DNA from: Reichenbachiella sp.
GTDB taxonomy: Bacteria; Bacteroidota; Bacteroidia; Cytophagales; Cyclobacteriaceae
NCBI RefSeq assembly: GCF_033344935.1
Contig: NZ_JAWPMM010000001.1
Location: 4,615,501 to 4,679,500 of the forward strand
Direction: 5' to 3'
DNA length: 64,000 bases
This document shows positions 26,538-54,244 of this stretch, in pieces. The notes under the pieces are model-generated. The model did no database searches and was not told the DNA's origin. It saw only the letters and a list, made by a program, of their open reading frames with translations. Made by a program: the position numbers and the translations under genes. Numbering within the stretch: the first letter of the stretch is position 1; every line of letters starts with the position of its first letter.

Positions 26538-26571
26538 TTATGCAATTTTTGTAAAGGTTTATGAGATTATT
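26538..26571 (-). promoter_or_regulatory. Candidate HMA-AraC operator upstream of copA (21-bp direct repeat)
   Basis: In gene orientation the two 13-mers are AATAATCTCATAA (26559-26571) and AAAAATTGCATAA (26538-26550), with corresponding bases 21 bp apart. The proximal copy ends 52 bp before the start codon of copA. The site overlaps the stop codon region of the upstream HMA-AraC gene. The same paired element occurs upstream of six other metal genes in this window. Confidence 0.6.
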
Positions 26572-27145
26572 GGGTAGCTACCTTGTCAAGGGGTAATCTC
26601 TCTTTTGTTGTAAGCTTCCTAAATTCTGAAGGTGACATGCCTGTCACTCTTCTAAACTGCCCGGAAAGGTATTGAACACTGCTGTAATCCAGTTTGTAAG
26701 ATATTTCACTTAGCGTCAATTCATCATAGATGAGAAGCTCTTTTACCTTTTCGACTTTTTGCAAAATCAGATATCGCTCAATAGTGACATTTTCGACAGA
26801 AGAAAATAAGTTGCTTAAGTAACTATAATCTTTGCCGATTCTCTGTTCCAGATAATGAGAAACATTCTGATTTATCGTTATTTCAGGGTTGTGAATAAGA
26901 TCAATGATAGCGGTTTTTATGTGTTCTATGAGCTTGCTATTACTATCCTCCAATAATTCAAATTCTCGATCCATGAGCACCTCACGGATTTGATCTAGCT
27001 GTATTAAGTTAACCTTCTCTGCAAGCTTCACTTCTCCAAGTTGGATATCCACCACCTCTATTCCCAACTGTGAAAGTTCCTCTCTTACCACTTGGATGCA
27101 GCGATTGCATACCATGTTTTTTATATATAAAATTTCTGACACCAT
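26567..27145 (-). CDS. HMA-AraC fusion transcriptional regulator
   Basis: A 192-residue regulator with an unusual layout. Residues 1-75 form an HMA-like beta-alpha domain with the metal loop IKNMVCNRCIQVV (CxxC at 13-16). Residues about 95-190 are the AraC pair of helix-turn-helices, with LTLSEISYKLDYSSVQYLSGQFRR and TGMSPSEFRKL. I infer that Cu(I) binding by the HMA loop sets DNA binding. The gene lies directly upstream of copA; both it and copA carry the 21-bp-spaced operator, so autoregulation and copA activation are likely. A paralogue is at 41.0-41.8 kb. Confidence 0.85.
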   Translation of the reverse strand: MVSEILYIKNMVCNRCIQVVREELSQLGIEVVDIQLGEVKLAEKVNLIQLDQIREVLMDREFELLEDSNSKLIEHIKTAIIDLIHNPEITINQNVSHYLEQRIGKDYSYLSNLFSSVENVTIERYLILQKVEKVKELLIYDELTLSEISYKLDYSSVQYLSGQFRRVTGMSPSEFRKLTTKERLPLDKVATQ

Positions 27146-27193
27146 ACCTAAGTTTGAATATTCACAATGTACGAAAATCCCTGATTAAAAAAT

Positions 27194-27227
27194 TTGCGAA
27201 ATTCCAGAAATGAGTTACGAAATTTTT
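27194..27227 (-). promoter_or_regulatory. Candidate operator upstream of the HMA-AraC gene
   Basis: Gene-orientation 13-mers are AAAAATTTCGTAA (27215-27227) and TGGAATTTCGCAA (27194-27206), 21 bp apart. The proximal copy ends 48 bp before the ATG at 27145. Its position implies autoregulation. Confidence 0.6.
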
Positions 27228-27240
27228 GTAGTAGCTACAA
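27226..27240. repeat. Short perfect inverted repeat TTGTAG-TAG-CTACAA
   Basis: Two 6-bp arms around a 3-bp spacer lie between the divergent operators for the HMA-AraC gene (27194-27227) and the GDCCVxC gene (27252-27285). It may be a binding site of a second, dimeric regulator or chance; no other copy was seen. Confidence 0.4.
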
Positions 27241-27251
27241 TCGAATTCGAG

Positions 27252-27285
27252 GATTAAATCGTAAATCTTTATCGCAATATCATAA
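27252..27285 (+). promoter_or_regulatory. Candidate operator upstream of the GDCCVxC gene
   Basis: The paired 13-mers are GATTAAATCGTAA (27252-27264) and CGCAATATCATAA (27273-27285), 21 bp apart, ending 48 bp before the ATG at 27334. This copy reads toward the plus-strand gene, making the intergenic region a pair of divergent operators. Confidence 0.55.
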
Positions 27286-27333
27286 ATGCCTAACTTGATT
27301 ATTTCTCTTCTTACTACCTAAACAAGAATAATC

Positions 27334-27570
27334 ATGGCGAACCTTCCCAAGACCCAGATGGTCACGCTTATTATCTGCAATGACTGTCAGCACGCATTTG
27401 TTACAGAAATGCCTTTGATAGAAGAGGTGCATCAAATAGTCTGTATTCACTGCGAAAGTGTAATGACGACCAACAAAGATCAATGTTGTGTCTATTGCTC
27501 TTATGGGTCTGAAAAGTACCCCAAGATGCAGCTCTGGGACATACTCAGAAGTTCTTTGGATAGTTCCTAA
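27334..27570 (+). CDS. Small Cys-rich GDCCVxC-type protein (variant motif)
   Basis: A 78-residue protein with a zinc-ribbon-like first half (IICNDCQHAF and IVCIHCESVM) and the second-half motif DQCCVYCSYGSEKYPKMQ. This is a clear relative of the GDCCVxC domain family, whose hallmark is GDCCVFCSYG followed by a CPPxQ motif. Here Gly-Asp becomes Asp-Gln and CPP becomes YPK, so the distal Cys is lost. Family members often travel with metal or mercury resistance genes, but their activity is unknown. It is preceded by an operator shared with copA. Confidence 0.7.
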   Translation: MANLPKTQMVTLIICNDCQHAFVTEMPLIEEVHQIVCIHCESVMTTNKDQCCVYCSYGSEKYPKMQLWDILRSSLDSS

Positions 27571-27578
27571 TACTTTCT

Positions 27579-27612
27579 CAAAATTTCATAAAACGTACTT
27601 AAAACATCGTAA
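27579..27612 (+). promoter_or_regulatory. Candidate operator upstream of the DUF4136 lipoprotein gene
   Basis: CAAAATTTCATAA (27579-27591) and TAAAACATCGTAA (27600-27612) are 21 bp apart. This copy begins only 8 bp after the GDCCVxC stop codon and lies 128 bp before the next ATG, a longer leader than at the other sites. Confidence 0.55.
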
Positions 27613-27740
27613 GACCTTTGGAGGTTTTAGTAGTTTTTTTGAGTAAAGGTTTTCTAATCCCAAACCTCTGGGGTATGACTGGCTTGCCTTAAGCGCAAAG
27701 CTCGGGACAGGCCGGTTTTCCCGGAGACCAATACCTAACT

Positions 27741-28346
27741 ATGACAAAATTTACCAATATATTATTAGCAGGTGCAGCGTTTCTTTTTACATCATGCAAT
27801 GTGTACCAAGATGTCCAGATCACAAAAGATAAGACTGTAGATTTCTCTCAATATGAAACCTACGCTTGGCTGCCTGATGTTGAAAACGTCAGCGAATCAG
27901 ATTACAATAACGACTTTATCCGGCAAAAAACCCGAAACTATTTCGGCCATTGCATGGCTCAGAGACAACTTGAACCTGATACCATAAACCCACAGCTTTT
28001 ATTACGAATCGAGTGGCTTAGTCATGCAAGAGCAGTGGAAGTTCCTCAAGTCAGGAATTGGCCAGACTACTACGATGCTGAGTATTACAATGCACCAACA
28101 GTTTACATCTACGATGGCAAAGTTACCGGCAGATCCGTGTGGGGTAAAGAGAATCCTGAACCTGAAGTAATACAGTATGCACATGGGGGAGCAAAATTGA
28201 CCGCAATAGACAGACTTACCAACCGCAAGGTTTGGGAGGGGGTTGCACAGGGAGATCTATATGACCCAAATATCATGTATAATCATCTGCACCCTGCCAT
28301 CCATAAACTAATGAAACGGTTTCCAATAAAAATCTCTAAAGAATAA
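27741..28346 (+). CDS. DUF4136 lipoprotein
   Basis: A 201-residue lipoprotein: signal peptide with lipobox LFTSCNVY (Cys at about 19), then the DUF4136 pattern, DVQITKDKTVDFSQYETYAWLPD and the late YAHGGAKLTAIDRLTNRKVWEGVAQG. DUF4136 proteins are small outer-membrane lipoproteins of unknown function, normally with a C-terminal region ending near a basic patch, as here (MKRFPIKISKE). It lies between the GDCCVxC gene and copB, and its own upstream region carries the 21-bp repeat, which argues for a role in copper stress. Confidence 0.8.
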   Translation: MTKFTNILLAGAAFLFTSCNVYQDVQITKDKTVDFSQYETYAWLPDVENVSESDYNNDFIRQKTRNYFGHCMAQRQLEPDTINPQLLLRIEWLSHARAVEVPQVRNWPDYYDAEYYNAPTVYIYDGKVTGRSVWGKENPEPEVIQYAHGGAKLTAIDRLTNRKVWEGVAQGDLYDPNIMYNHLHPAIHKLMKRFPIKISKE

Positions 28347-28391
28347 GTGTTAGCAAAAAATTATCAGAGAAGGAGACCAGACTCTACATTT

Positions 28392-28425
28392 CAAAATATC
28401 ATAAGTTTTAACCAAAATATCATAA
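28392..28425 (+). promoter_or_regulatory. Candidate operator upstream of copB (two identical 13-mers)
   Basis: CAAAATATCATAA occurs twice, at 28392-28404 and 28413-28425, an exact 21-bp repeat and the cleanest of the series. It ends 50 bp before the copB ATG. Confidence 0.7.
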
Positions 28426-28475
28426 AATAAGAAACATCTATTTTCTTTATATAACAGAACCTTAAAAAGACTTTA

Positions 28476-30482
28476 ATGAATCATACTCAACATACAGATC
28501 ACCAACACGAACATCACGATCATTCAGATCACCATGCACACATGATCGAAGACTTCAAAAAGCGCTTTTGGATCTCCTTAATACTTACCATACCGGTACT
28601 CATACTCTCCCCAATGATTCAGTCGTTCTTGGGCATTTTCTGGGGTTTTTCGGGCGACCGGTACGTGCTGTTTGGTTTATCCTCGGTTGCCTTTTTTTAT
28701 GGGGGATGGCCTTTCCTAAAGGGATTGTATGAAGAGCTGAAAGACAAAAACCCTGGTATGATGACTCTGATAGCTGTGGCAATTGGAGTCGCTTATTTCT
28801 ACAGTTCTGCGGTGGTATTTGGATTGGAGGGCAAGATGTTTTTCTGGGAACTGGTTACCCTAATTGATATCATGCTTTTAGGGCATTGGATCGAAATGAA
28901 ATCCGTGATGGGTGCGTCAAGAGCCTTAGAGCTATTGGTGAATATGATGCCCTCTGAAGCACATCTGGTTGATGGCGATAGTACGAGGGACATTGCTCTG
29001 AAAGAAGTAAAGCCAGGAGATCTCCTCTTGGTAAAACCAGGAGAAAAAATCCCGGCAGATGCCGTCGTTACTGAAGGCGAGAGCCATGTCAACGAATCCA
29101 TGCTCACCGGAGAATCAGTCCCCGTAAAGAAAGGTATGGATGATAAGGTAATCGGAGGGTCGATAAACGGCAATAGCTCCATTACCATCAAAGTATCGCA
29201 TACCGGAGAAGAAAGCTATTTGAACAAAGTCATTACCTTGGTTCAGGAAGCTCAAAAAACCAAATCCAAAACTCAGAATCTCGCTAACAGAGCTGCAAAA
29301 TGGCTTACCTACATTGCACTCTCCGTAGGATTTGCAACATTGGCCGTGTGGCTGATTCTGGGTTACGACTTTGTTTTTGCACTTGAGCGAATGGTGACCG
29401 TGATGGTAATTTCGTGTCCACATGCGCTAGGTCTGGCCGTTCCATTAGTAGTGGCTATTTCTACCTCATTGTCTGCCCAAAACGGACTATTAATTCGAAA
29501 TAGAACAGCATTTGAGAATTCTCGGAAAATTTCAACACTCGTTTTCGATAAAACTGGAACCCTAACAAAAGGGGAATTTGGGGTTACTCGTTTTCATTCT
29601 TTCATTCATGAATTTAATGATGAAGAGCTTCTGCTTTGGGCGGCAACACTTGAGCAAAACTCTGAACACCCTATTGCAGAAGGAATTGTGAAGAAAGCTG
29701 CCGGTCTTTCAAAGGCAATTCCAAAAGCGCTGGATTTCAAGGCAATTACAGGGAAAGGGATACAAGCAAATGTGCATAACAAAAAAGTGATGGTTGTGAG
29801 CCCAAGATACCTTCGGGATGAAAGCATTGAAGCGCCTGAAGAAGCGGTTGGGAATGCTGCAGAAACGGTTGTATTTGTACTAATTGATGGGAAGCTGTCA
29901 GGGTTCATTGCATTGGCCGATGAGGTGCGCCCAGAAAGTAAAACGGCGATAAAGCTGTTTCAGGACGAAGGGATCAAGGTAATGATGGCTACTGGAGACA
30001 ATGAAAAAGTTGCCAAATCTGTAAGTGAGCATTTGGGACTGGATGGCTACTATGCCGAGGTGCTGCCACATCAAAAGGTGGAGATTGTCAAGAAACTACA
30101 GGAACAAGACCAGTTTGTGGCCATGACTGGTGACGGTGTAAATGACGCACCTGCTCTGGCACAAGCCGATGTGGGTATAGCGGTAGGTTCCGGTACTGAT
30201 ATAGCGGCTGAAACAGCAGACATTATTTTAGTTAATAGTAATCCAAAGGATATAGCCAATCTGATATTTTTTGGAAAAGCCACTTATCAAAAAATGATTC
30301 AAAACCTGGCATGGGCGACAGGTTATAATGCCATCGCCATTCCACTAGCCGCAGGAGTACTATATGGTGTTGGGTTTATACTAAGCCCTGCTGTGGGTGC
30401 AGTGTTCATGAGTTTAAGTACGGTTATTGTAGCAATCAACGCTCAATTACTGAAGAAGAAGGTAATGGCCGATACGAAATGA
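28476..30482 (+). CDS. copB: Copper P1B-3-type ATPase CopB
   Basis: This 668-residue pump has the P1B-3 hallmark CPH in TM6 (MVISCPHALGLAVPLVV) instead of CPC, and a His-rich N-terminus (HTQHTDHQHEHHDHSDHH) in place of an HMA domain. Phosphorylation (LVFDKTGTLTKGEFGV), actuator (ESMLTGESVPV) and hinge (TGDGVNDAPALAQADVGIA) motifs are intact. P1B-3 pumps export copper, with a preference for Cu(II) reported in some. It has its own operator and overlaps the following secreted protein by 4 bp. Together with CopA it gives two parallel copper exporters. Confidence 0.94.
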   Translation: MNHTQHTDHQHEHHDHSDHHAHMIEDFKKRFWISLILTIPVLILSPMIQSFLGIFWGFSGDRYVLFGLSSVAFFYGGWPFLKGLYEELKDKNPGMMTLIAVAIGVAYFYSSAVVFGLEGKMFFWELVTLIDIMLLGHWIEMKSVMGASRALELLVNMMPSEAHLVDGDSTRDIALKEVKPGDLLLVKPGEKIPADAVVTEGESHVNESMLTGESVPVKKGMDDKVIGGSINGNSSITIKVSHTGEESYLNKVITLVQEAQKTKSKTQNLANRAAKWLTYIALSVGFATLAVWLILGYDFVFALERMVTVMVISCPHALGLAVPLVVAISTSLSAQNGLLIRNRTAFENSRKISTLVFDKTGTLTKGEFGVTRFHSFIHEFNDEELLLWAATLEQNSEHPIAEGIVKKAAGLSKAIPKALDFKAITGKGIQANVHNKKVMVVSPRYLRDESIEAPEEAVGNAAETVVFVLIDGKLSGFIALADEVRPESKTAIKLFQDEGIKVMMATGDNEKVAKSVSEHLGLDGYYAEVLPHQKVEIVKKLQEQDQFVAMTGDGVNDAPALAQADVGIAVGSGTDIAAETADIILVNSNPKDIANLIFFGKATYQKMIQNLAWATGYNAIAIPLAAGVLYGVGFILSPAVGAVFMSLSTVIVAINAQLLKKKVMADTK

Positions 30483-31075: not shown

Positions 31076-31082
31076 CTAATCA

Positions 31083-32652: not shown

Positions 32653-32724
32653 TTTGGAAAGGCTCACAAGCTTCGGTTTAAATAATGTAAGAAATTTTAT
32701 CAATAACTAAATGAATAAATACCT

Positions 32725-34987: not shown

Positions 34988-35551
34988 TTAAAGATTGAAT
35001 TCTAACGTTATATTGTATGATATGGTGATTTCATCACCGGTTTTCAATGTGCCTAACATGGCTGTGGGGGGCTCAATATTGAAGTCCGACATCTTGAAGG
35101 AAACCGAACCTTTGAAAGTCATGAGCCTGCTTGTATTTTCTTTGTTGTATACCGCCCTGACAGGGACACTCCGCTCTTCTCCAGCAACTTTCAACTTGCC
35201 ATCGGAGGCGATCACTTCACTATTGTTGTAGTCAAACACTTCTACTTCATAGCTTATGGTTGGAAAGTCCTTATATTTAAGAGCAGAATAGGTTTTATTA
35301 TCCATGATGTCTTTCCCGCTTTTGATCGACTTCACCGGAACGTTTAGTCTTAGGTGGCCTAAAATGAGGGAATCAGCATCTTCCACATGTAATTCAACAT
35401 TCATTTGATCTACCAAAACGTCAGACTTCCAGTCATGCAAAGAGGATGTGCCTTTTAAGGTCATGCTGCTTTTATCTGCATGAAAACGGGCCTGTGAAAA
35501 GGCGGTATTGGCAAATAGTAGCAGGAAGGTTATCCTTAGAAATGTTTTCAT
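34988..35551 (-). CDS. YceI-family periplasmic lipid-binding protein
   Basis: A 187-residue protein with a signal peptide (LLFANTAFSQARF). The YceI/lipocalin-like barrel is seen in HADKSSMTLKGTSSLHDWKS, PVKSIKSGKDIMDNKTYSALKYKDFPTI, the DGKLKVAGEERSVPVRA strand pair and the C-terminal LKTGDEITISYNITLEF. YceI proteins bind isoprenoid or amide lipids in the periplasm. A 21-bp-spaced repeat lies 80 bp upstream, and the porin follows by 18 bp. A more distant YceI-like protein is at 39.8 kb. Confidence 0.85.
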   Translation of the reverse strand: MKTFLRITFLLLFANTAFSQARFHADKSSMTLKGTSSLHDWKSDVLVDQMNVELHVEDADSLILGHLRLNVPVKSIKSGKDIMDNKTYSALKYKDFPTISYEVEVFDYNNSEVIASDGKLKVAGEERSVPVRAVYNKENTSRLMTFKGSVSFKMSDFNIEPPTAMLGTLKTGDEITISYNITLEFNL

Positions 35552-39217: not shown

Positions 39218-39592
39218 TTATTGTTTTAGAGTTCTTATGTAGCTAACCAACTGCCATCTTTTTTCCTCTGAAAGAGTAGCCTTGTATGCTGCCATAGGAG
39301 CACGGCCTTCTGTGATTTTCCAAAAGATGGCTCCATCGCTTTGCGAATGAAAAGCGGTGTTCGTAAAATTGGTTGGTTTGGGATTGAGCGCTGCACCGGC
39401 AATTCCATCTCCCTTTCCTTTTTCACCATGACAAATGGCACACATGGTGGCAAAGATCTTTTTGCCACCTTTTATTGCCTCTTCTTTTCCAACCAAAGGG
39501 TTTTTCAGTTTATCAGCTTCCGGTGGAGCTTTCCATGCATCCTGTGCGGTTCCCAAAGCCATTAAAAAAACAATTATTAGTGCACTTTTCAT
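39218..39592 (-). CDS. Periplasmic c-type cytochrome (class I)
   Basis: A 124-residue secreted cytochrome: signal peptide (LIIVFLMALGTAQ), then IFATMCAICHGEKGKGDGIAGAALNPKPTNF (CAICH heme site) and the axial-Met region EGRAPMAAYKATLSEEKRWQLVSYIRTL. This is the pattern of small soluble cytochromes feeding terminal oxidases. It is the first gene of the operon, 12 bp before the 38-kb porin. A candidate class 2 operator lies 125 bp upstream. Confidence 0.87.
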   Translation of the reverse strand: MKSALIIVFLMALGTAQDAWKAPPEADKLKNPLVGKEEAIKGGKKIFATMCAICHGEKGKGDGIAGAALNPKPTNFTNTAFHSQSDGAIFWKITEGRAPMAAYKATLSEEKRWQLVSYIRTLKQ

Positions 39593-39717: not shown

Positions 39718-39751
39718 TTACCTTATTGTGGTTATGATTTAAGGAATTTTG
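39718..39751 (-). promoter_or_regulatory. Candidate class 2 operator upstream of the cytochrome/porin operon
   Basis: Gene-orientation 13-mers CAAAATTCCTTAA (39739-39751) and CACAATAAGGTAA (39718-39730) are 21 bp apart. The match is weaker than at 35632 but shares CAAAATT and GGTAA. Confidence 0.45.
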
Positions 39752-40466: not shown

Positions 40467-40500
40467 TTACCAAATTTTGAATATGATTTGTGATATTCTG
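40467..40500 (-). promoter_or_regulatory. Candidate class 2 operator upstream of the 40.4-kb YceI-like gene
   Basis: Gene-orientation 13-mers CAGAATATCACAA (40488-40500) and CAAAATTTGGTAA (40467-40479) are 21 bp apart and lie 95 bp before the ATG at 40371. The proximal copy is nearly identical to those at 35632. Confidence 0.5.
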
Positions 40501-41020: not shown

Positions 41021-41803
41021 TCAGGATGAAGTATGCACTCTATATTCACCGAAGTTTTCCAACGGGATTTGTAAAGCTTGCATGGATGAACCGTTTTTAT
41101 CCTGGATGGAATTTGGGGTATGAGAGTTAATCCCATCTGGGAAGGATCCATTGTTTCCTTCGCAATCACATCCCTCACATCCACAATCGCATTCACGATC
41201 TTCGTTGTTTTTTGTTTCGTCTAGTGATTTACTACTGGTATCCCCAAGGCTACTCAAAGATGCTTCCCACTCCTGCTTGTACTTTGATAGTGATTTCCCT
41301 GTGTATTTTTTGAACTGACCAGATAGATAATGAATACTGCTGTACCCAACATTAACTGCAATTTGGCTGAGGTTAAGTTTACCTTGTTTGACCAACTCCT
41401 TTACTTTGTTAGTCCTAAGTTCAATAAAGTATTGTTCTATCGTCTCTCCTTTGTATTGACTATAGATTTTACTGAGTTGATGGTAGTTTCGGGCCAGTTG
41501 TTGTGAAATGTATTGCGACAACTTAAGCTTATGGCTTAATAGACTTATGTTATCCATATAGTCGTGAATGGCCTTATTTATTTCTGTAACTATTACTTCA
41601 TTGGTATCTCTAACAAGTCCTAGATCCAGTGCTTCTAATCTTTGGTTTACTGTTTGGAGATTCAGTACTTGTCCTGCCCCTAATACAGCATAACCAAGTT
41701 CCACCTCATTATATTGGATCCCAAGATCTGTCAAAATCTGTTTTACAACATGGATACACCTGGGGCATACCATGTTCTTTATTTGTATTGTGAAAGTTTT
41801 CAT
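41021..41803 (-). CDS. HMA-AraC regulator with Cys-rich C-terminal tail
   Basis: A 260-residue paralogue of the 26.6-kb regulator. The HMA-like N-terminus has IKNMVCPRCIHVV (CxxC at 13-16), and the AraC domain follows (KLNLSQIAVNVGYSSIHYL, then SGQFKKYTGKSLSKYKQEW). Unlike the first copy it continues for about 75 residues, including the acidic Cys cluster CDCGCEGCDCEGN, five or six cysteines in 13 residues that look like a second metal site. The downstream 40.5-kb gene follows by 6 bp. The class 2 operators nearby are its most likely targets (inference). Confidence 0.83.
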   Translation of the reverse strand: MKTFTIQIKNMVCPRCIHVVKQILTDLGIQYNEVELGYAVLGAGQVLNLQTVNQRLEALDLGLVRDTNEVIVTEINKAIHDYMDNISLLSHKLKLSQYISQQLARNYHQLSKIYSQYKGETIEQYFIELRTNKVKELVKQGKLNLSQIAVNVGYSSIHYLSGQFKKYTGKSLSKYKQEWEASLSSLGDTSSKSLDETKNNEDRECDCGCEGCDCEGNNGSFPDGINSHTPNSIQDKNGSSMQALQIPLENFGEYRVHTSS

Positions 41804-44725: not shown

Positions 44726-45328
44726 TTAATTGAGCATCTCTTTCGTACTTCCGCATGTCAGCATGCTACCGCCGAAATAAGGGTTTCGGATCTCTTTACT
44801 ATTGCTAAGCCAAAAGGCTCCCTGGTTATCTAATGCCATAGGGCAATGTTGATAGTAAATAGTGCTTTCAGTCGTACCAAAAGCTTTAACACTTTTGTAA
44901 AGTGCCTGATTAAAAGAGGCGTAGGCTGTTTTCTGCGTTTTGGTCTCAGCAGTATTGGAGATAGTTTCCAATGCACTGTTCATTTCCTTCAAATTCATCA
45001 TCCAGTCCATGTGCGCCTCGGAGCTTTTGAGCAGATTCATATCTACTTTTTTCAGAATTTCCTTTACCTGTGCACTGGTGTTGGATATATCATTTCCCTC
45101 ACCGGTTATAAAGTTTTCTGTCAATACTAGTGAGGTTTTGTAAACCTCACCGAGTTGATTCCGAAATTCTGAAGGAGTATCATAAGTCATGACCTGACCA
45201 CTCTCTGGGGTCATTCCAGCATGCATAGAATGATCCATTTTTGAGCCTTCTTTTTGGCTATGGTCATGTTGTGCATATGCCCCCAATGCTACAAAGAGGG
45301 CAGCTATCATCATTATCTGTTTTTTCAT
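44726..45328 (-). CDS. Stand-alone DUF3347 periplasmic protein
   Basis: A 200-residue secreted protein (signal peptide to about AQHDH), with a His/Met-rich start (HDHSQKEGSKMDHSMHAGM) and a DUF3347 helical domain: LGEVYKTSLVLTENFITGEG, MDWMMNLKEMNSALETIS, FNQALYKSVKAFGTTESTIYYQHCPMA and the end NPYFGGSMLTCGSTKEML. The same domain is fused to the C-terminus of CusB at 46.7 kb, where YYQFCPMARDNEGAYWLS is nearly identical. The stand-alone copy probably carries copper ions near CusB. Confidence 0.85.
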   Translation of the reverse strand: MKKQIMMIAALFVALGAYAQHDHSQKEGSKMDHSMHAGMTPESGQVMTYDTPSEFRNQLGEVYKTSLVLTENFITGEGNDISNTSAQVKEILKKVDMNLLKSSEAHMDWMMNLKEMNSALETISNTAETKTQKTAYASFNQALYKSVKAFGTTESTIYYQHCPMALDNQGAFWLSNSKEIRNPYFGGSMLTCGSTKEMLN

Positions 45329-45360: not shown

Positions 45361-46161
45361 TTAATTACCATCTCCAGTATCCACAATTACAGGTAACCCA
45401 TCTTTACCCATTGGGATAAAGAAGAATTTTGTGTTTGGGCTAGTGGTTAGTTTGTCTTGTACTTCCAAAGCCTTATACTGCAAATACTTTTGTGTGAGTC
45501 CGGCATCTATAATTTGTTGGGCATCTCGTTGGCCTTTGGCAAGTATGCGCTGTATTTCAGCCTGCTTCTCAGCTATCTTTATTTCATAATCCTTTTGCTG
45601 TATGTCTTGCTCTACAGCTAATTTTCGATCTACGGCTGAAGTGACAACCTCGGGATATTTTATATGATCGACGGTCACATTATCAATCTCAAGGTGTTTT
45701 CCCTCGATTTTAACTATCAATTGTTTGTAGATTTCAGCTTCAATCTCAGGGCTTTTTGGCGAAACAACCTTGTATTCATAGTCCGCAAAAATGTTCCTGG
45801 TTAGGCTTACAAACTCAGGCCTAACTACGTTCTTGTAGTAATCCTGACCAATCTCCAATTCAAGTTGTGCAAGCTCCGCTTCAATAGGTCTTAAGGTTAC
45901 GGAAACCGTGATAGGGATATGGAGTTCATCTTTGGTGAGCACCGCTACATCCTCTGTGTAAGTCTGCCATTGAACACTGTAACGTACCACCCCATTCCAG
46001 GGCATATGCCAGACCACTCCGTTCTTAAAGACTTCTTGCGTTTGAAGACCTTTTCCGTATGGCTTCCACTTCATTGCATGTGTGCCGGGTCTCACTACTG
46101 AGCAGCCTACTGCGAACATTGCAATAACTGCTACACTTAAAATGCTAATTTTCGTTTTCAT
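45361..46161 (-). CDS. SPFH/prohibitin-like lipoprotein
   Basis: A 266-residue protein with a lipoprotein signal (AVIAMFAVGCSVVRP, Cys at about 20) and an SPFH domain: VFKNGVVWHMPWNGVVRYSV, TVSVTLRPIEAELAQLELEI and the helical KDYEIKIAEKQAEIQRILAKGQRDAQQ. SPFH proteins build membrane-bound rings that organise membrane protein complexes. A lipid anchor at the N-terminus puts it in the outer membrane or periplasm. A candidate operator lies 57 bp upstream. It is followed by DUF3347 and the MlpB chain. Confidence 0.8.
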   Translation of the reverse strand: MKTKISILSVAVIAMFAVGCSVVRPGTHAMKWKPYGKGLQTQEVFKNGVVWHMPWNGVVRYSVQWQTYTEDVAVLTKDELHIPITVSVTLRPIEAELAQLELEIGQDYYKNVVRPEFVSLTRNIFADYEYKVVSPKSPEIEAEIYKQLIVKIEGKHLEIDNVTVDHIKYPEVVTSAVDRKLAVEQDIQQKDYEIKIAEKQAEIQRILAKGQRDAQQIIDAGLTQKYLQYKALEVQDKLTTSPNTKFFFIPMGKDGLPVIVDTGDGN

Positions 46162-46218: not shown

Positions 46219-46252
46219 TGATGGAATTTTGACTTAGGTTTATGATGTTCCA
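46219..46252 (-). promoter_or_regulatory. Candidate operator upstream of the SPFH gene
   Basis: Gene-orientation 13-mers TGGAACATCATAA (46240-46252) and CAAAATTCCATCA (46219-46231) are 21 bp apart and end 57 bp before the ATG. It overlaps the stop codon of the 46.24-kb small gene. This is a weaker match than at copB, but it has the same spacing and distance. Confidence 0.45.
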
Positions 46253-46546: not shown

Positions 46547-46678
46547 TCAAGAGCCCATAGTGTCAGCTATGGCTAACCCGACAACTATTAGAATCAAAAT
46601 CAACCAAATACCCCATTTCAGGATCTTTTTCCCCTTAGATGGTGGTGACTCTTCACCAACTCTACAACATGCCTTCAT
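46547..46678 (-). CDS. 43-residue membrane protein in the cus operon
   Basis: A short frame that automated callers may miss. It reads MKACCRVGEESPPSKGKK (two adjacent Cys at 4-5), then a hydrophobic helix (ILKWGIWLILILIVVGLAIA) and ends MGS. Very small proteins with a CC start and one helix occur after CusA/B genes in other Bacteroidota, as here, 70 bp after cusB. A role in the efflux complex is inference only. Confidence 0.5.
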   Translation of the reverse strand: MKACCRVGEESPPSKGKKILKWGIWLILILIVVGLAIADTMGS

Positions 46679-46748
46679 GTGCTTATTATTTCTGGTTTTA
46701 AGCGTAATAAAATCCCTGGTATGGATCCAGTGACCAGGGACTCACCGC

Positions 46749-48584
46749 TTACTTAATCACTTCTTTGTTTTCGCCACATGTCAGCATTGCATCACCGAAG
46801 TAAGGGTTTTTAATCTCTTCAACCGAGCTTAGCCAGTAGGCACCCTCATTGTCTCTGGCCATGGGACAAAATTGATAGTAGATTGTTTCTCCCACCGTAC
46901 CGAACATCTTTATTGCACTATAAAGAGCATCGTTGAAATCAGCATAAGCTAGTCGCTGCTTTTTAATGTCCTTAGATGATTCTATTTTATCTAATGATTC
47001 AGTAAGTGTCTTTAACCCACTCATCCAATGGTTGTGCATTTCACCCTTGACCAGGCTCATGTTTACCTTTTTTAAAGCATCTTGTACTTTTGAAACTTCA
47101 GCATTAGCCTTGGAAGCATCAGTGGCCAGAAAAGCTTGCTGCAATATCAACTGAGCTTTATAAACTTCTGTTAGCTGCTTCTTGAAGTTCTCATCCACAG
47201 ACATGTCCATTTTCATGGTGTTCTCCGTACTGCTTGTTTCATGGCCTTCATGTTCAGGAGCCGATGGCTTCTTTTCTTCACTGGTGCCTCCATGGTTATG
47301 CCCCGTGGATACTTTGCCACCTTCAGGGTTCATCATGCTCTTTTCACCTTTCAACTGCGCAGCAGCATCAATTTTAAATACTCCATTTGATGCAACCATT
47401 TCGCCTTGTTGCAAGCCAGATTTTACTATGTAGTAGTCACCGGCTTCCGCACCAAGTTCGATTTCCCTGAATTGGAACATATTGTTGTGGTCGCTGGTCA
47501 TTACATACACTACGGCTTTTTTACCTGTCCACAATACAGCTGATTTAGGCACAACCAATTGATCTCCTGATCCAGGCAGCATTGTTTTCAATAATCCCGC
47601 TGCTAACATTTGGGGCTTGAGTAATTCACCTGGATTTTTCAGTTCTGCTCTTACCCCCGCTACTCGGGACATCCTGTCTAGCACCGGATCAATGAAGGTC
47701 ACAGTGCTTTCAAATTCTCGATCTGGTATGGATTTAATTCTAAATTTGATCTTGTCATGCAGTTTGATCCAGGGGATGTCGCTTTCATAAGCATCAAACA
47801 TTACCCATACATGTCGCAGGTCTACCACTTCAAACAATGCAGACCCCTCTTTTACATAGTCACCAAGTGTTACATGGCGCATGGTGACTGTACCTGTGAT
47901 GGGTGACAATACGTCAAAGTAGAAATCAACATCTCCTGATTCCTCAATCGCGGCAATCTGCTCTTCTGTTAAGTCCCAAAGCTTTAATTTGTTGCGTGTG
48001 GCTTTATAATAGTTGGGATTTGTTTCCTTCAACTTCATTGCTTCGAACAATTCCCTCTGTGCCGTGACTAGCTCTGGTGAGTAAATCTTAGCTAAGACTT
48101 GTCCTTTTCTCACTTTTTCGCCTGTAAAGTTTACAAAGAGCTTTTCGATCCTTCCAGGATACCGAGAAGTCAATTCTGAAATCTTCCGCTCATCTGCCAT
48201 AACCTTCCCTGGTAAATACACTTCTTTATATGGAGCTTTCTTTTCGATGGTACTCATCTCAACCTCTGCGATTTTCATAGCAGCATTAGAAAGTTTGACC
48301 GTGAATTGTGCATCTCCATCTTCATCTCCTTCATCTTCCAGGGGGATAAGTTCCATTCCGCAAATAGGGCAGCTCCCAGGCTTGTCTGCTTTTATTTGAG
48401 GGTGCATTGAGCATGTCCAAACTGTTCCATCCTCATGTTCCTCTATTGAATGTTCTTCGGGGAGCATCTCAGCAGATTTTGAACCTGAACCACCGAAAAG
48501 GAGCCATCCCAATAGAACACCTACAATCAATACTCCTATATTGATTAGCAATTTCTTATTTTTTAAGGCTTCTAATATTTTCAT
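46749..48584 (-). CDS. cusB: CusB-type RND adaptor with N-terminal metal site and C-terminal DUF3347
   Basis: A 611-residue membrane-fusion protein. An N-terminal anchor is followed by a YHS/heavy-metal binding motif (WTCSMHPQIKADKPGSCPICGMELIPLE), then the adaptor region with hairpin and barrel segments (YLPGKVMADERKISELTSRY, GEKVRKGQVLAKIYSPELV, SPITGTVTMRHVTLGDYVKEG). A His/Met-rich linker (about 440-475) leads to a fused DUF3347 domain ending NPYFGDAMLTCGENKEVIK. CusB metal-binding and adaptor functions are known; the extra DUF3347 domain could deliver copper to the pump. It begins 1 bp after the cusC stop. Confidence 0.93.
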   Translation of the reverse strand: MKILEALKNKKLLINIGVLIVGVLLGWLLFGGSGSKSAEMLPEEHSIEEHEDGTVWTCSMHPQIKADKPGSCPICGMELIPLEDEGDEDGDAQFTVKLSNAAMKIAEVEMSTIEKKAPYKEVYLPGKVMADERKISELTSRYPGRIEKLFVNFTGEKVRKGQVLAKIYSPELVTAQRELFEAMKLKETNPNYYKATRNKLKLWDLTEEQIAAIEESGDVDFYFDVLSPITGTVTMRHVTLGDYVKEGSALFEVVDLRHVWVMFDAYESDIPWIKLHDKIKFRIKSIPDREFESTVTFIDPVLDRMSRVAGVRAELKNPGELLKPQMLAAGLLKTMLPGSGDQLVVPKSAVLWTGKKAVVYVMTSDHNNMFQFREIELGAEAGDYYIVKSGLQQGEMVASNGVFKIDAAAQLKGEKSMMNPEGGKVSTGHNHGGTSEEKKPSAPEHEGHETSSTENTMKMDMSVDENFKKQLTEVYKAQLILQQAFLATDASKANAEVSKVQDALKKVNMSLVKGEMHNHWMSGLKTLTESLDKIESSKDIKKQRLAYADFNDALYSAIKMFGTVGETIYYQFCPMARDNEGAYWLSSVEEIKNPYFGDAMLTCGENKEVIK

Positions 48585-48585
48585 C

Positions 48586-49851
48586 TTAAAGTTGTTTTCC
48601 TGTTAAATAATTGATGTATGCCACGAAAGTGTTCTGATCGGCACGTGCTTTTTCAAGCTCCAGTTCGTATCTAAGTAATTGTCGCTCCATGCGCAATACT
48701 TCTTCGAAATCGCTCCCTGCTGTCGTGTATTGTGCGATAAGGATATCAAGCGATTGATTTGCATATCGCATCAGTCTCTGATACAAGCCCACTCTTCTGA
48801 CCGCATCCGAATAGTCTCTCCATCCCTTTTCCAGGGAAGTCTCAAGCTCATTCGTCTTGTCCTCTTTTTTATAGGTAACTGATGTCCTTAGAAGTTCTTT
48901 CTCCTTTACCATCGACTGATACTTTTTCCTGTAAAGGGGGATTCGAACTCCTACTTGGGGAAATATCAAAGCGTCTTTCCCATTATCCGGAATATCCACA
49001 CCAGACCTTGGTGAGATATTGGTGTAGGAAACTCCAAGGTTGAAAGAGGGTAACCCCATTTTTTGGGCGACATCTATTTCAGCATCCAGAGCTTGTAACT
49101 CGAAATCCAGGCCTCTAAGAAGTGGGTTCTGAGCAACGATTGAGTCCAGCAGGATATTTTTCCCTTCCGAAAAGGCAATAGTTGCCAACGAATCAGGAAT
49201 GGCAATATCCAGTGGATTTTCGGTATTCAGCAGTTCATTGAACTTTGCCTGAATTGGGGATCTTGTGTCTTGGAGATACAACAATTGGTTGTTCAGTTCT
49301 TCAAGATCCATTTCTACTCGCAACAGATCAACAGCGCTTCCGGTGGCAGATTCCAATCTGACACTGGCTAGCTCACGGAATGACTCTAAGAGAACAATAT
49401 TCTCTTCGACAATATCAATTGCCGCTTCCAGCACATATAAATCGAAATACTCGGAACGAACATCAAAAAAGAGCCTGTTTTTGGTCTCCTCAAATGCTTC
49501 GAAGCGAGCTTTTGCCAATTGTGCAACTGCTCTTTCCTGTGACTTCAACTGGCCAAACCATGGAAAGGCCTGACTTAATGATATACCAGCATTTTGAGCA
49601 CCAACCCGTGTTTCTACCGGACTAGTGAAAATATTGAACATCACAGTGGGGTCTGGCAAAGCCCTTGCCTGCGGCATCCGCTCCAATGTGGCCAGGTATT
49701 GATTGAAAACTGCTTTAAGCTCAGGGTTATTCTCTGCTGCTATTTTCAGGTACTCAATTGTAGGGTCTTGCGCTTCTTGTGCATTGACTTTGGTGACAAT
49801 CAGAAGAAGTATCAAAAGCCAGCTATAGGTGTTTTTTATAGTAAATTTCAT
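48586..49851 (-). CDS. cusC: TolC-family outer-membrane efflux protein (CusC-like)
   Basis: A 421-residue protein with a signal peptide (LLLIVTKVNAQEA) and long helical hairpins typical of TolC-like trimers: YLKIAAENNPELKAVFNQYL, RLESATGSAVDLLRVEMDLEEL and the internal repeat near residues 280-380 (YANQSLDILIAQYTTAGSDFEEVLRMERQLLRYELELEKARAD). It provides the outer-membrane duct of the copper RND pump. The gene starts 1 bp after cusA ends and is followed after 1 bp by cusB, giving gene order A-C-B. Confidence 0.9.
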   Translation of the reverse strand: MKFTIKNTYSWLLILLLIVTKVNAQEAQDPTIEYLKIAAENNPELKAVFNQYLATLERMPQARALPDPTVMFNIFTSPVETRVGAQNAGISLSQAFPWFGQLKSQERAVAQLAKARFEAFEETKNRLFFDVRSEYFDLYVLEAAIDIVEENIVLLESFRELASVRLESATGSAVDLLRVEMDLEELNNQLLYLQDTRSPIQAKFNELLNTENPLDIAIPDSLATIAFSEGKNILLDSIVAQNPLLRGLDFELQALDAEIDVAQKMGLPSFNLGVSYTNISPRSGVDIPDNGKDALIFPQVGVRIPLYRKKYQSMVKEKELLRTSVTYKKEDKTNELETSLEKGWRDYSDAVRRVGLYQRLMRYANQSLDILIAQYTTAGSDFEEVLRMERQLLRYELELEKARADQNTFVAYINYLTGKQL

Positions 49852-49852
49852 C

Positions 49853-52800
49853 TTATGCTGATTTAAGTTGTTTTTTGACTAATCGTTCCTGCCACATGCA
49901 ATAGAGGACGGGCACTACGAATACCGTAATCACTTGTACAAGCATCCCTCCGAAAGTAGGGATGGCCATAGGAACCATGATATCGGAACCTTTACCCACT
50001 GAAGTAAAAATGGGTAACAAGGCAATGATGGTCGTTGCAGTAGTCATGATTGCCGGCCTGATCCTAAGCTTGCCTGCATGTAGTACTGCCGCTCTTACAC
50101 CTTTTATATCTTTCGGCTTTTCTTCAGCAAAAATTTGCTTTAGATAGGTGGCCATAATTACCCCATTATCGGAAGCAACTCCGAACAAAGCGATAAAGCC
50201 AACCCAAACTGCCACACTGAGGTTGACAGTGTGTACCTGGAAGAGGTCTCGCATATTGTTACCTGCCAGGGAAAAGTTCATAAACCAATCCTGACCAAAT
50301 GCCCATATAAGAATGAATCCTCCAGCGAAGGCCACAAAAACACCCGAAAAGACCATGGATGTTGCCGGTACATTACCGAATTGGAAATACAAAATGAGAA
50401 AAATAGCAAGCAAACAGACCGGCACTACTATGGCTAATCTTTTGGTGGCCCTGATCTGGTTTTCGTAATTACCAGTGAATTTGTAGGATACACCTGCTGG
50501 AAGCATAAATTCTCCTGCATCCATTTTGGCTTGTATGAAGCGCTGAGCCTCTTCTACAACATCCACTTCCGCATAACCTTCTCTTTTATCGAAGATCACA
50601 TAACCATCCAGAAAAGTGTCTTCACTTTTGATTACTTGTGGTCCTCTTCTATAGGTGATTTCGGCAAGTTCTCCTAATGGAATTTGTGCTCCGGAGGGAG
50701 TTGGGATAAGTACGTTTTTCACATCTTCCGGATTGTCCCTGAACTCCCTGGCGTACCTCACCCTGACAGGAAATCGTTCTCGACCTTCAACTGTAGTGGT
50801 CAACTTGATTCCACCGATGGCCACTTCTATGAAGTTTTGAATATTCTTCATGGTAAGCCCGTATCTCGCAATAGCATCTCTGTCAACATCGAACTCCAGG
50901 TAGGGTTTCCCTACTATTCTATCTGCAAAAACAGATGAAGATTCGATACTTGGCACCTGTTGCAAGATTTTCTCAAGATCCAGACCTACACGCTCGATAG
51001 TCTCCAAATCTGGCCCAAACACTTTGATGCCAATTGGGGCTCGCATACCGGTCGAAAGCATAATCAAACGTGTTTGGATGGGTTGCAATTTTGGCGCTGA
51101 AGTCATGCCTGGGACTTTGGTAGATTTAAGTATCTCCTGCCAAATGTCGTCTGGTGACTTGACATGATCTCGCCATTGTCGATAGTATTCGCCTTTTCGT
51201 CTATCCACAACCAGTTCCTCGTTTTGCACAATTCTGAAACCATCTTTTTGTGGATGATAAAATGAACCGTCTTTTAAAACATAGTTTCCATCCGAATCTG
51301 TTTTGAAACGTAACCTGTGCCCATTTTCATCTACCATATACTCCGGTTTGTAGTTAATGGTATTTTCGAACATAGAAATAGGGGCTGGATCCAATGCTGA
51401 GTTTACCCGACCCCATTTACCAACTACAGATTCCACTTCCGGTATTTGCGCTACATAGGCATCTACCTTTTTTATCACGTCAATGTTCTCTTCTATTCCC
51501 GAATGCGACATGGTGGTTGGCATCAACAGATAAGACCCTTCATCCAAAGCAGGCATAAATTCTTTGCCTGTTCCTGGAAAAGTTTCATTAATACCTTGCC
51601 ATAAACTGGTTTGTCTGATTTGCCAACCCATCTTTTCGGCACCATTTCCTACAAATCCGAAAAAGCTTTCAAAACCACTCCATGATAACATGCCCCATAG
51701 AAAAATGACGATTGGAGCCATTAGGAATTTCCATTTATTCTCAAGACACCATTTTAGAATAGGGGTATAGAACTTTACTACCGCAAGTAGCAGACCAAGG
51801 ACAAGAACTATCACGCCAATGACAAAAATGAAATTAGCAAAAAGGCTGTTTTGAGATCCCAAAGGCAGCCATTCGCGTGTCAGGAAAATGGCAACCGTTG
51901 TGATGATGATCCCTATGTTCAGGTATTCATGAATCCATTTCCTGTTTTCAGGAAGGTATTTTTCCGCTAGGTTGTTGATCCCCAAAGCCAAAAGAACAAT
52001 TCCTAGCCAGCTACCTGACCAGAAGAGCACTAATATACCAAGAGCAACAAGTGCAACATTCCATATTCTTTTGGTTCGATCTTTACCTATCTTTATAGAG
52101 AATAATGAATGGGCTAGTGCCGGAATTACCACAAGGCCTATAAAAAGAGCGGCCAGCATAGCAAATGTTTTAGTGAATGCCAATGGTTTGAATAGCTTGC
52201 CTTCGGCGGCCTGCATAGCAAAAACCGGTAGGAAACTCACTACTGTAGTGGTAAGGGCAGTGATCACAGCTGTAGCTACTTCGGTAGTGGCCTTGTAGAT
52301 TACCTCCAGCTTTTGCTTTCCTGAAATGCCTTTATTTTCCGGCAGATCCAAGTGCCGGATTATGTTTTCTGTAAATACTACACCGACATCCACCATCACT
52401 CCAATGGCGATGGCTATCCCCGACAAGGCGACAATATTTGCATCTACACCTGCGTATCGCATGACAATGAAGGTCATCAACACTCCAAGCGGCAACAGGC
52501 TTGAAATAAGAATAGAGGCTCTTAGATTAAACACCACGATAATCACTACAATGATGCTGATAAGTATCTCTTCAGAAAGGGCTTTTTCCAGTGTGCCTAG
52601 TGTCTCCTTGATCAGTCCTGTTCTGTCATAGAACGGAACTATGGTGACCTTGGAAACCGTTCCGTCAGGAAGTACTTTTGACGGCAGTCCTGGTGAAACT
52701 TCCTCGATTTTCTTTTTCACATTTTCAATGACGGCTAATGGATTTGCTCCAAAGCGGGAAACCACCACAGCACCTGTAGCTTCAGCCCCACCTTTGTCCA

Positions 52801-53680
52801 AGCCCCCCCGTCGCGTTGCTGGCCCGAAATGCACTTGGGCTACATCTTTGATCCGAATAGCTGTATTGTTGTGCTGAGTGATGACGGCCTTTTCCAAGTC
52901 TTCCAGGTTCCGTATATAGCCCAAACCCCTCACAAGGTATTCGGCATTGTTGACCTCCATCGTCCTTGCACCCACATCCAGGTTACTTTCCTTGACGGCC
53001 TTCATGATTTGGGCAATGTTGACATTGTATTCTTTCATTGCCACCGGGTCAATATCTACCTGGTACTCTTTCACAAATCCTCCAATTGCCGCTACTTCAG
53101 ACACACCGCTTGCAGAAGTCAGAGCATAACCTACGTAGAAATCCTGTAGGGTCCTTAATTCCTGTGGATCCCAACCTCCGGCCGGTTCACCTGTTTCAGG
53201 ATTGCGACCTTCCAGTGTGTACCAGTAAATCTGGCCGAGGGCCGTAGCGTCAGGTCCTAATGCCGGCTGCACTTCTGAGGGGATTATACCAGCAGGTAGG
53301 GAATTCAGCTTTTCAAGAATCCTCGTTCTGCCCCAGTAGAACTCTATATCCTCCTCAAAAATGATATAAATGGTGGATAGGCCGAAAATGGAATTACTTC
53401 TTATGGTCTTAACTCCTGGTACCCCCAATAGGGCTGTAGTTAAAGGATAAGAAATTTGATCCTCAATGTCCTGCGGAGATCTACCCATCCAGGTGGTAAA
53501 TACAATTTGCTGGTTTTCTCCTATATCAGGAATGGCATCAACAGGCACTGGATCTCTTGGAAACCAGTCCATTTTCCAGTTGAAAGGGGCTGTGGACACT
53601 CCCCATCCTATAAAGACTAGTACAATTAATGCTGTAACCAGCTTGTTCTCTAAAAAGAACCTGATTAGTTTATTAAGCAT
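49853..53680 (-). CDS. cusA: Copper-type heavy-metal RND transporter CusA
   Basis: A 1275-residue inner-membrane RND pump. The N-terminal segment is canonical (MDWFPRDPVPVDAIPDIGEN, then MGRSPQDIEDQISYPLTTALLG). The central helix has IAIAIGVMVDVGVVFTENIIRHL, the HME4-like version of the proton-relay region (DVG rather than DFGxxxDGAV). Periplasmic loops carry MLSTGMRAPIGIKVFGPDL and ARYGLTMKNIQNFIEVAIGG. It is longer than CusA of E. coli (1047) owing to an inserted hydrophobic module (about 540-640). With CusB carrying a Cu-site, copper/silver efflux is likely. Confidence 0.94.
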   Translation of the reverse strand: MLNKLIRFFLENKLVTALIVLVFIGWGVSTAPFNWKMDWFPRDPVPVDAIPDIGENQQIVFTTWMGRSPQDIEDQISYPLTTALLGVPGVKTIRSNSIFGLSTIYIIFEEDIEFYWGRTRILEKLNSLPAGIIPSEVQPALGPDATALGQIYWYTLEGRNPETGEPAGGWDPQELRTLQDFYVGYALTSASGVSEVAAIGGFVKEYQVDIDPVAMKEYNVNIAQIMKAVKESNLDVGARTMEVNNAEYLVRGLGYIRNLEDLEKAVITQHNNTAIRIKDVAQVHFGPATRRGGLDKGGAEATGAVVVSRFGANPLAVIENVKKKIEEVSPGLPSKVLPDGTVSKVTIVPFYDRTGLIKETLGTLEKALSEEILISIIVVIIVVFNLRASILISSLLPLGVLMTFIVMRYAGVDANIVALSGIAIAIGVMVDVGVVFTENIIRHLDLPENKGISGKQKLEVIYKATTEVATAVITALTTTVVSFLPVFAMQAAEGKLFKPLAFTKTFAMLAALFIGLVVIPALAHSLFSIKIGKDRTKRIWNVALVALGILVLFWSGSWLGIVLLALGINNLAEKYLPENRKWIHEYLNIGIIITTVAIFLTREWLPLGSQNSLFANFIFVIGVIVLVLGLLLAVVKFYTPILKWCLENKWKFLMAPIVIFLWGMLSWSGFESFFGFVGNGAEKMGWQIRQTSLWQGINETFPGTGKEFMPALDEGSYLLMPTTMSHSGIEENIDVIKKVDAYVAQIPEVESVVGKWGRVNSALDPAPISMFENTINYKPEYMVDENGHRLRFKTDSDGNYVLKDGSFYHPQKDGFRIVQNEELVVDRRKGEYYRQWRDHVKSPDDIWQEILKSTKVPGMTSAPKLQPIQTRLIMLSTGMRAPIGIKVFGPDLETIERVGLDLEKILQQVPSIESSSVFADRIVGKPYLEFDVDRDAIARYGLTMKNIQNFIEVAIGGIKLTTTVEGRERFPVRVRYAREFRDNPEDVKNVLIPTPSGAQIPLGELAEITYRRGPQVIKSEDTFLDGYVIFDKREGYAEVDVVEEAQRFIQAKMDAGEFMLPAGVSYKFTGNYENQIRATKRLAIVVPVCLLAIFLILYFQFGNVPATSMVFSGVFVAFAGGFILIWAFGQDWFMNFSLAGNNMRDLFQVHTVNLSVAVWVGFIALFGVASDNGVIMATYLKQIFAEEKPKDIKGVRAAVLHAGKLRIRPAIMTTATTIIALLPIFTSVGKGSDIMVPMAIPTFGGMLVQVITVFVVPVLYCMWQERLVKKQLKSA

Positions 53681-53778
53681 AATTAATATGATTTAATAGT
53701 TAGACGAAACAAAAAAGTGAAGCCCATCTAATGGTCTAGGACAGACCAAAAGGGCATCTAAAATGTTGTGTAGCTATT

Positions 53779-54150
53779 TTAAAGAAGAAAAGACTGATAC
53801 CTGGTGAGTCTGTCAGGAACAGTCAACGGGTGTAGGAGATAGGTATTATCTATAAAAGTGGAACGTATAACTACCCGAACAAGTGAGGGGTATGTAATGG
53901 TATAAAGTAATACTTGTTCAGGAGGATCTACACTTTGAAATGAGATTTGGGTGTTGTCATCATGCTGAACTACCTCATGCTCCAATTCACAACAGGGCGT
54001 TGGCATATCCATCCCTTCACAACATGAATGTAGTTCTTCGAAAAAAGCGGTTTCTACCAGCTCGCCCCCACAAAAATGTTTAGCCATTACCACTCCTCCT
54101 GATGAGGATAGGATAAGAAAACTGAAGAATATGGCTAAAAATCTTTTCAC
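53779..54150 (-). CDS. HYC_CC_PP-family periplasmic protein, head of the cus operon
   Basis: A 123-residue protein with a signal peptide (FLILSSSGGVVMAKHFCGGEL). The family's Cys pattern is visible: HFCGGELVE, then HSCCEGMDMPTPCCELEH. These small Cys-rich proteins are common at the start of Bacteroidota copper-efflux operons; metal binding is likely but unproven. A class 1 operator and a TACGTTTG promoter lie upstream, 60 and 24 bp away, so this is the first gene of the cus transcript; a 98-bp gap separates it from cusA. Confidence 0.8.
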   Translation of the reverse strand: MKRFLAIFFSFLILSSSGGVVMAKHFCGGELVETAFFEELHSCCEGMDMPTPCCELEHEVVQHDDNTQISFQSVDPPEQVLLYTITYPSLVRVVIRSTFIDNTYLLHPLTVPDRLTRYQSFLL

Positions 54151-54174
54151 GTAAAATATTTACTTCTGGTATCT

Positions 54175-54182
54175 CAAACGTA
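54175..54182 (-). promoter_or_regulatory. Candidate -7 element of the cus operon
   Basis: The minus strand reads TACGTTTG, an exact TAnnTTTG match, 24 bp before the ATG at 54150. The class 1 operator (54211-54244) is 28 bp further upstream. Confidence 0.6.
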
Positions 54183-54210
54183 AAGCTACCTTTTTGGATG
54201 CATTGAAAAG

Positions 54211-54244
54211 TTACGAAATTTTTGTTAATGTTTATGATATTGTG
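54211..54244 (-). promoter_or_regulatory. Candidate class 1 operator of the cus operon
   Basis: Gene-orientation 13-mers CACAATATCATAA (54232-54244) and AAAAATTTCGTAA (54211-54223) are 21 bp apart. The surrounding 30 bp closely match the copA site (26538): on the plus strand the two share AATTTTTGT and GTTTATGA at the same spacing. Confidence 0.65.

Follow-up and report, generated by a model that had tools for sequence, protein, structure and literature searches.

A 64,000-nucleotide stretch of a Reichenbachiella sp. genome (contig NZ_JAWPMM010000001.1, positions 4,615,501 to 4,679,500; hereafter the window, in whose coordinates features are given unless stated otherwise) contains two copper P-type ATPase genes, copA and copB, a four-gene cus efflux operon and a gene for a 192-residue protein, regulator 1, in which an HMA/CopZ-like domain precedes an AraC-type DNA-binding domain (HMA-AraC). 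A preliminary description of the sequence had assigned pairs of a 13-base-pair (bp) box to seven promoter regions of this cluster. Direct reading and a scan found all seven pairs at the expected coordinates, head to tail and on the strand of the downstream gene (Table 1). Corresponding bases are 21 bp apart in every pair, as had been claimed, and the two copB boxes are indeed identical (CAAAATATCATAA twice). The distance from the proximal box to the start codon was given as 48–60 bp in six of the seven cases, which is correct, the DUF4136 gene (128) being the exception. The description also placed a TAnnTTTG element just downstream of the copA and cus operators. This stands for copA, where the element begins 22 nucleotides (nt) past the proximal box; at cus that offset, which is the position conserved in relatives, is occupied by TAGCTTTA, and TAnnTTTG is found at offset 28 instead.

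Paired boxes in the window and in relatives

A trivial explanation would be that A+T-rich intergenic DNA gives rise to such pairs by chance. A position weight matrix (PWM) built from the 14 boxes was applied, with a threshold of 11 bits, to the window and to a background of 18 random 20-kb stretches (360 kb) of the same genome. At spacing 21 the window contained 14 matches that reached this threshold, seven of them the training sites, against 0–5 at any one of the remaining spacings between 14 and 30. The random stretches gave 8 matches at spacing 21 and 4–12 at other spacings. When each pair was scored with itself left out, the seven scores ranged from 15.2 to 32.8 bits, compared to background maxima of 15.2–16.2, and none of the background positions in 360 kb reached any of the held-out scores, with the GDCCVxC pair marginal (15.2 vs 15.2).

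A covariance model of the seven sites, based on sequence alone, was run over the whole genome (4.88 Mb), with 150 of the 2958 candidates from a first look being scored. Eight matches had E<0.01, and all fell within the window. Seven of these correspond to the training sites, by construction (that of DUF4136 registered one position off); the remaining one, at 40467, is an additional pair. The best match outside these eight had E=0.195. Among the candidates scored, no comparable site was seen outside the window.

Relatives were examined by searching 59 genomes, the own genome included, for HMA-AraC proteins scored at E<=1e-20, which are present in 41 of them. Sixty relatives' loci around HMA-AraC genes formed a training set. 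Intergenic tandem 13-mers with at least 11 of 13 positions identical, collected without reference to any motif, numbered 28 at spacing 21 and 0–10 at other spacings from 13 to 35; several of these tandem 13-mers are simple or degenerate repeats, and not all are operators. A half-site profile trained separately for each spacing exceeded 18 bits in 28 of the 60 loci at spacing 21 and in 0–8 at any one of the remaining spacings between 15 and 30. The family box consensus is close to CNAAATNATRTAA, and the window variant bears C before RTAA. With the profile fixed, we turned to 80 named loci, the top-ranking 80 among 555 confirmed ones; they had been retrieved in part through an IKNMVCxRC motif and came mostly from Bacteroidota, with some Ignavibacteria/Chlorobi and one Acidobacteria metagenome-assembled genome (MAG). 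Scores above 20 bits were obtained in 30/80 test loci at spacing 21, and the other spacings between 14 and 30 gave 0–1/80 each; ten column-permuted profiles gave 0/80. Two test loci are the same DNA as training loci, and without them the count is 29/78 at spacing 21 vs 0–1. The locus labelled Acidobacteria carries both an HMA-AraC gene and the operator, by transfer or through a binning error. Training restricted to proteins with Tyr at position 159 (see below) slightly favored spacing 25 (12.8 bits of information vs 11.6 at 21); we treat this as an artefact because it showed no association with the promoter −7 element (TTTG at its best offset in 5/36 sites vs 23/36 for spacing 21).

Thus only the 21-bp spacing is enriched in the window, in relatives and in the test loci, and no site with E<0.01 lies outside the window among the 150 candidates scored. 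On the side of chance are the GDCCVxC pair, which sits at the background ceiling, and the bare CRTAA core, which is common in the genome: as a site finder, the pattern CRTAA-N16-CRTAA gave 48 genome matches, below the 123 of a reversed control, and was discarded as not specific. For the set as a whole the spacing enrichment, the leave-one-out scores and the test loci reduce the probability of chance to practically nothing, and this explanation was rejected; individual weak pairs (GDCCVxC, SPFH and the additional pair at 39718) could still be chance. The proposal of an AraC-type tandem operator serving one copper regulon is supported by these data, the operator accompanying HMA-AraC genes across many Bacteroidota with 21 bp as its sole spacing.

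Table 1. Operators, promoter elements and genes of the window. Gap: nucleotides from proximal box to start codon. Offset 22: sequence 22 nt past the proximal box.
Feature	Position	Strand	Gap	Offset 22	Basis or remark
copA operator, AATAATCTCATAA-8-AAAAATTGCATAA	26538..26571	-	52		sequence reading, scan, leave-one-out scoring
copA -7 element, TACCTTTG	26508..26515	-			22 nt past proximal box
copA, copper P-type ATPase	24236..26485	-			TIGR01511 above cut-off
HMA-AraC regulator 1, 192 aa, Tyr159 in second recognition helix	26567..27145	-			Pfam, profile, AlphaFold2, Foldseek PDB
Operator of the HMA-AraC gene	27194..27227	-	48	TACATTGT (27164-27171)	
GDCCVxC operator	27252..27285	+	48	no TA	weakest of the seven
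GDCCVxC domain protein	27334..27570	+			NF041374 above cut-off
DUF4136 operator	27579..27612	+	128	no TA	
DUF4136 protein	27741..28346	+			PF13590
copB operator, two identical CAAAATATCATAA boxes	28392..28425	+	50	TATATAAC (28448-28455)	
copB, second copper P-type ATPase	28476..30482	+			TIGR01511 above cut-off
Additional pair, CAAAATTCGGTAA-8-CAAAATTTGATAA	35632..35665	-		TATCTTCA	before YceI gene 34988-35551
Additional weak pair	39718..39751	-		no TA	before cytochrome c gene 39218-39592
Additional pair	40467..40500	-		TAACTTGC	before gene 39799-40371; profile match 19.1 bits, E=0.007
HMA-AraC paralogue 2, 260 aa, Tyr159	41021-41803	-			36% identical to regulator 1
DUF3347 gene	44726-45328	-			PF11827; behind SPFH gene
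SPFH/Band 7 gene	45361-46161	-			PF01145
SPFH-DUF3347 operator	46219..46252	-	57	no TA	
cus operon, four genes	46749..54150	-			
CusB	46749-48584	-			
Outer-membrane efflux protein of cus operon	48586-49851	-			
CusA RND	49853-53680	-			
HYC_CC_PP, first cus gene	53779-54150	-			
cus operator	54211..54244	-	60	TAGCTTTA (54181-54188)	
CusR, OmpR-type response regulator	54387-55058				adjoins cus site and operon

The scan of the window also revealed three pairs beyond the seven, all on the minus strand. One precedes a YceI gene, another a cytochrome c gene, and the third a gene that matched nothing in Pfam. All three lie near a second HMA-AraC gene, paralogue 2, which is proposed as their regulator on grounds of proximity. 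Paralogue 2 has a Cys-rich C-terminal extension of 68 residues that is missing from most homologues. Two further HMA-AraC genes are located elsewhere in the genome, at 2171351 and 2446911 (genome coordinates). An open reading frame of 1487 residues at 58397-62860 of the window reads as a fusion of an RND permease with an outer-membrane efflux protein (ACR_tran + OEP), and a frame apparently open across nearly all of the 20-kb stretch 2950000-2969999 of the genome suggests a giant protein.

Regulator 1 and its association with the operator

Regulator 1 belongs to the AraC/XylS family by its C-terminal pair of helix-turn-helix (HTH) motifs, both above cut-off: PF12833 (HTH_18) at 57.1 bits (cut-off 33.6) and PF00165 (HTH_AraC) at 43.3 bits (cut-off 26.6). 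The N-terminal domain of about 65 residues bears an MVCNRC (CxxC) motif. As a single sequence, the first 65 residues scored below the Pfam HMA cut-off; a profile of 16 homologues matched, over residues 3–63, the metal domains of CopZ (1k0v, 1.9e-4) and ATP7B (7xuk, 5e-7), and also AraC/SoxS HTH chains. An AlphaFold2 model (mean predicted local distance difference test score, pLDDT, 87) has the strand-helix-strand-strand-helix-strand order of HMA domains followed by the AraC domain. Foldseek comparison of the model with the PDB returned the AdpA, GadX, AraC and SoxS domains and, more weakly, CopZ 2qif (TM 0.71 on target, E 0.018). By profile and model the N-terminal part thus has the ferredoxin-like fold and CxxC motif that define an HMA domain. 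Neither the CueR nor the CsoR family was matched by regulator 1, Pfam and NCBIfam scans giving AraC-type families and a weak CopZ.

Which protein goes with the operator was addressed with a 67-position operator-promoter profile made from 60 sites (threshold E<=0.01, up to 87 candidates scored per genome). A match was found in 37 of the 41 genomes with HMA-AraC and in 2 of the 18 without it (Fisher 5.6e-9). Of the two exceptions, one genome (G053) holds an HMA-AraC gene cut by a contig end, while the other (G049) shows none. Operators of at least 16 bits precede CopA-type ATPase genes at 19 of 21 loci beside HMA-AraC, 20 of these 21 being training loci, and at 1 of 15 in genomes that had yielded no HMA-AraC; the single positive is again G053, with its truncated gene. 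Of 20 profile matches picked away from known HMA-AraC genes (not all such matches), 8 precede copper-type genes: two CopA-type ATPases, confirmed by Pfam, one CopZ-like gene, one Csp-type gene and four genes of the HYC_CC_PP family, to which the first cus gene also belongs.

An obvious competitor of regulator 1 is CusR, whose gene adjoins the cus site. CusR-type regulators control cus operons, and OmpR-type proteins bind direct repeats too, though with a half-site spacing of 10–11 bp, not 21. A homologue of CusR (E<=1e-6) was encoded in 0 of 142 HMA-AraC loci, whose flanks usually measure 4–6 kb, some being shortened by contig ends; 88 of these loci bear the operator. The OmpR-type gene found here beside a cus operon, an arrangement of CusR/CusS-type systems, has no counterpart at those loci. 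Between genomes, moreover, the operator tracks HMA-AraC. We consider it very improbable that CusR rather than HMA-AraC binds the boxes, and CusR was rejected as the binder.

The identity of the boxes themselves varies with the protein. In a specificity scan with box columns 9–11 made neutral, a site was found for 95 of 151 HMA-AraC homologues. The base before RTAA in the proximal box is other than T for 19 of 22 proteins with Tyr at position 159 of the second recognition helix and for 3 of 71 with His (3/70 without duplicates). When column 9 alone was made neutral, residue 159 came out first among 271 residue tests; it would align with a MarA residue that contacts bases. Regulator 1 has Tyr159, the five nearest listed rows all having His159, and C precedes RTAA in 14 of the 14 boxes of its seven pairs. 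The three pairs near paralogue 2, also a Tyr159 protein, have G or C there in 6/6 boxes. In the own genome a His159 paralogue lies beside a second copA-type gene, and the pair there bears T in both of its boxes, with TTTG lying at offset 26. Some observations caution against reading the correlation as specificity: T is kept in 3 of the 22 Tyr159 proteins, and, of seven changes at residue 159 among the scored tree rows, one contrast only lies on well-supported branches, so that relatedness is a possible source of the correlation.

Promoter geometry and probable mode of action

In sequence not used for finding the operator, TTTG occurs at offset 26 past the operator in 52 of 74 sites outside the window, compared to a maximum of 7 in 1000 random circular shifts, and in 33 of 46 sites of the test loci alone. 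The downstream consensus in relatives is TAnCTTTGTA. The −7 element of Flavobacterium psychrophilum spans −12 to −5 (PMC9723704); with this position and the fixed TTTG offset, the proximal box would cover about −47 to −35 and the distal box about −68 to −56. Base composition of the relatives' sites revealed no TTTG at −33. Judged by these predicted positions, tandem half-sites would lie on one face of the DNA close to −35, an arrangement characteristic of the AraC/XylS family, and the fixed position of the −7 element points to activation.

The layout is in kind a classic AraC-type one. The araI1 and araI2 half-sites of AraC are direct repeats likewise spaced by 21 bp. As is proposed here, AraC occupies two proximal half-sites with an AraC-type HTH pair and recruits RNA polymerase from them (PMC4760080). 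The HMA-AraC system differs in that AraC senses through an arabinose-binding domain, the place of which is taken by the 65-residue HMA/CopZ-like domain, and in that its promoters are of the Bacteroidota −7 type (TAnnTTTG).

HMA-AraC might instead be a repressor relieved by copper, or a dual regulator that represses as the apo form and activates with copper. AraC itself works in both modes (PMC4760080), the proximal box would reach to −35, a place from which some regulators repress when bound, and a site precedes the HMA-AraC gene, for which autoregulation may be proposed. Since the boxes are clear of the −7 element, and TTTG keeps its 26-nt offset while no TTTG is seen at −33, the layout suits activation better, and we regard a repressing role as unlikely.

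Our preferred interpretation is that the seven pairs are tandem operators of regulator 1, which would act as a cytosolic Cu(I)-sensing activator of copper-export genes; we put its probability at roughly 0.8. Physical binding, Cu(I) as the ligand and activation over repression are what we infer from sequence patterns. HMA-AraC would sense cytosolic Cu(I) through the CxRC motif of its CopZ-like domain and bind head-to-tail half-sites two helical turns apart, the proximal one ending at about −35. The bound protein would recruit RNA polymerase to promoters that have a TAnnTTTG-like −7 element and no visible −33 element, and so may turn on its own gene together with copA, copB and the cus operon, and probably accessory genes. 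Regulon membership is weaker for the DUF4136, GDCCVxC and SPFH genes than for copA, copB, the HMA-AraC gene and cus. DUF3347 homologues occur in 6/62 and 8/80 HMA-AraC loci of two sets, and this recurrence links the SPFH-DUF3347 operon to copper.

Several results speak against this interpretation or limit it. To our knowledge DUF4136 and SPFH are not copper families. TA is present at offset 22 in 6 of the 10 window sites, being absent from the GDCCVxC, DUF4136, SPFH and 39718 pairs, and the full TTTG at offset 26 is seen in one of ten, that of copA. No operator was found, at the threshold used, for 56 of 151 HMA-AraC homologues, and four HMA-AraC genomes (G010, G025, G026 and G028) lack a profile match. 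The operator-promoter profile was partly built from sites of the same relatives, so the 37/41 and 19/21 are not independent, while the low counts without HMA-AraC are. Among the 15 negative-control ATPases, 10 are 45–56% identical to this CopA and 5 only 27–37%. Of the 20 picked matches, 12 have no obvious copper gene downstream, five of them in a single genome (G051), and one of the eight copper matches, in G053, is 1.3 kb from the truncated HMA-AraC gene.

Proposed copper sensing by HMA-AraC proteins

The metal-site motif MVCxRC is invariant in two alignments whose rows had been chosen or fetched with that motif; among all 151 homologues, the first Cys is replaced by Ser in 20. A copper exporter (CopA, CopB or CusA homologue) is present in the relatives' locus of 1/20 Ser homologues vs 32/48 Cys homologues (Fisher 2e-6). 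When the named loci, which were fetched with the Cys-bearing motif, are added, 85 of 131 Cys homologues have an exporter. Loss of exporter linkage together with the first Cys suits, if indirectly, a predicted binding of Cu(I) by CxRC. The Ser branch (YMVSxRCK), almost never found beside copper exporters, comprises the protein encoded at 2446911 of the own genome (L040) and 19 other homologues. In several of its members a related 21-bp operator is present, with a distal box of TGTGAAT type. Having lost this Cys, the branch may now answer to a different signal while keeping the operator layout.

Elsewhere the proposed role, cytosolic Cu(I) control of genes for CopA-type ATPases and chaperones, belongs to CueR (of the MerR family) and CsoR, whose folds and operators are unrelated to those of HMA-AraC. 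CsoR was not found in the own genome and occurred in 4 of the 59 genomes searched, and CueR above the curated cut-off in none of them. Weaker MerR-type matches were detected in 57 of the 59 genomes, full-length with 66–88 bits in 7; the own genome has two weak ones (~25 bits). Such CueR relatives, present in the order, are possible further cytosolic copper sensors, which makes a general role of HMA-AraC slightly less probable.

No description of an HMA-AraC copper sensor, its regulon or its specificity variation was found among the open-licence papers listed, which does not prove absence from print; PMC10710014 is a genome survey without bearing on this regulator. On balance we lean towards a view in which HMA-AraC proteins would serve Bacteroidota and allied phyla generally as sensors of cytosolic copper, with CueR or CsoR in this role in other phyla, one promoter architecture (box-8-box-22-TAnnTTTG), and a specificity tuned by a single recognition-helix residue: T would precede RTAA where residue 159 is His, and C or G where it is Tyr. 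In Reichenbachiella sp., tuning at residue 159 may insulate four paralogues from one another: regulator 1 with C boxes, paralogue 2 with G/C boxes, and the two His159 paralogues, whose neighboring sites, one of them weak, bear T. These results offer a candidate sensor and a hypothesis of one-residue specificity, along with an exact grammar of operator and promoter from which regulon members can be predicted in further genomes. The operator could also be used as a copper-responsive promoter for Bacteroidota.

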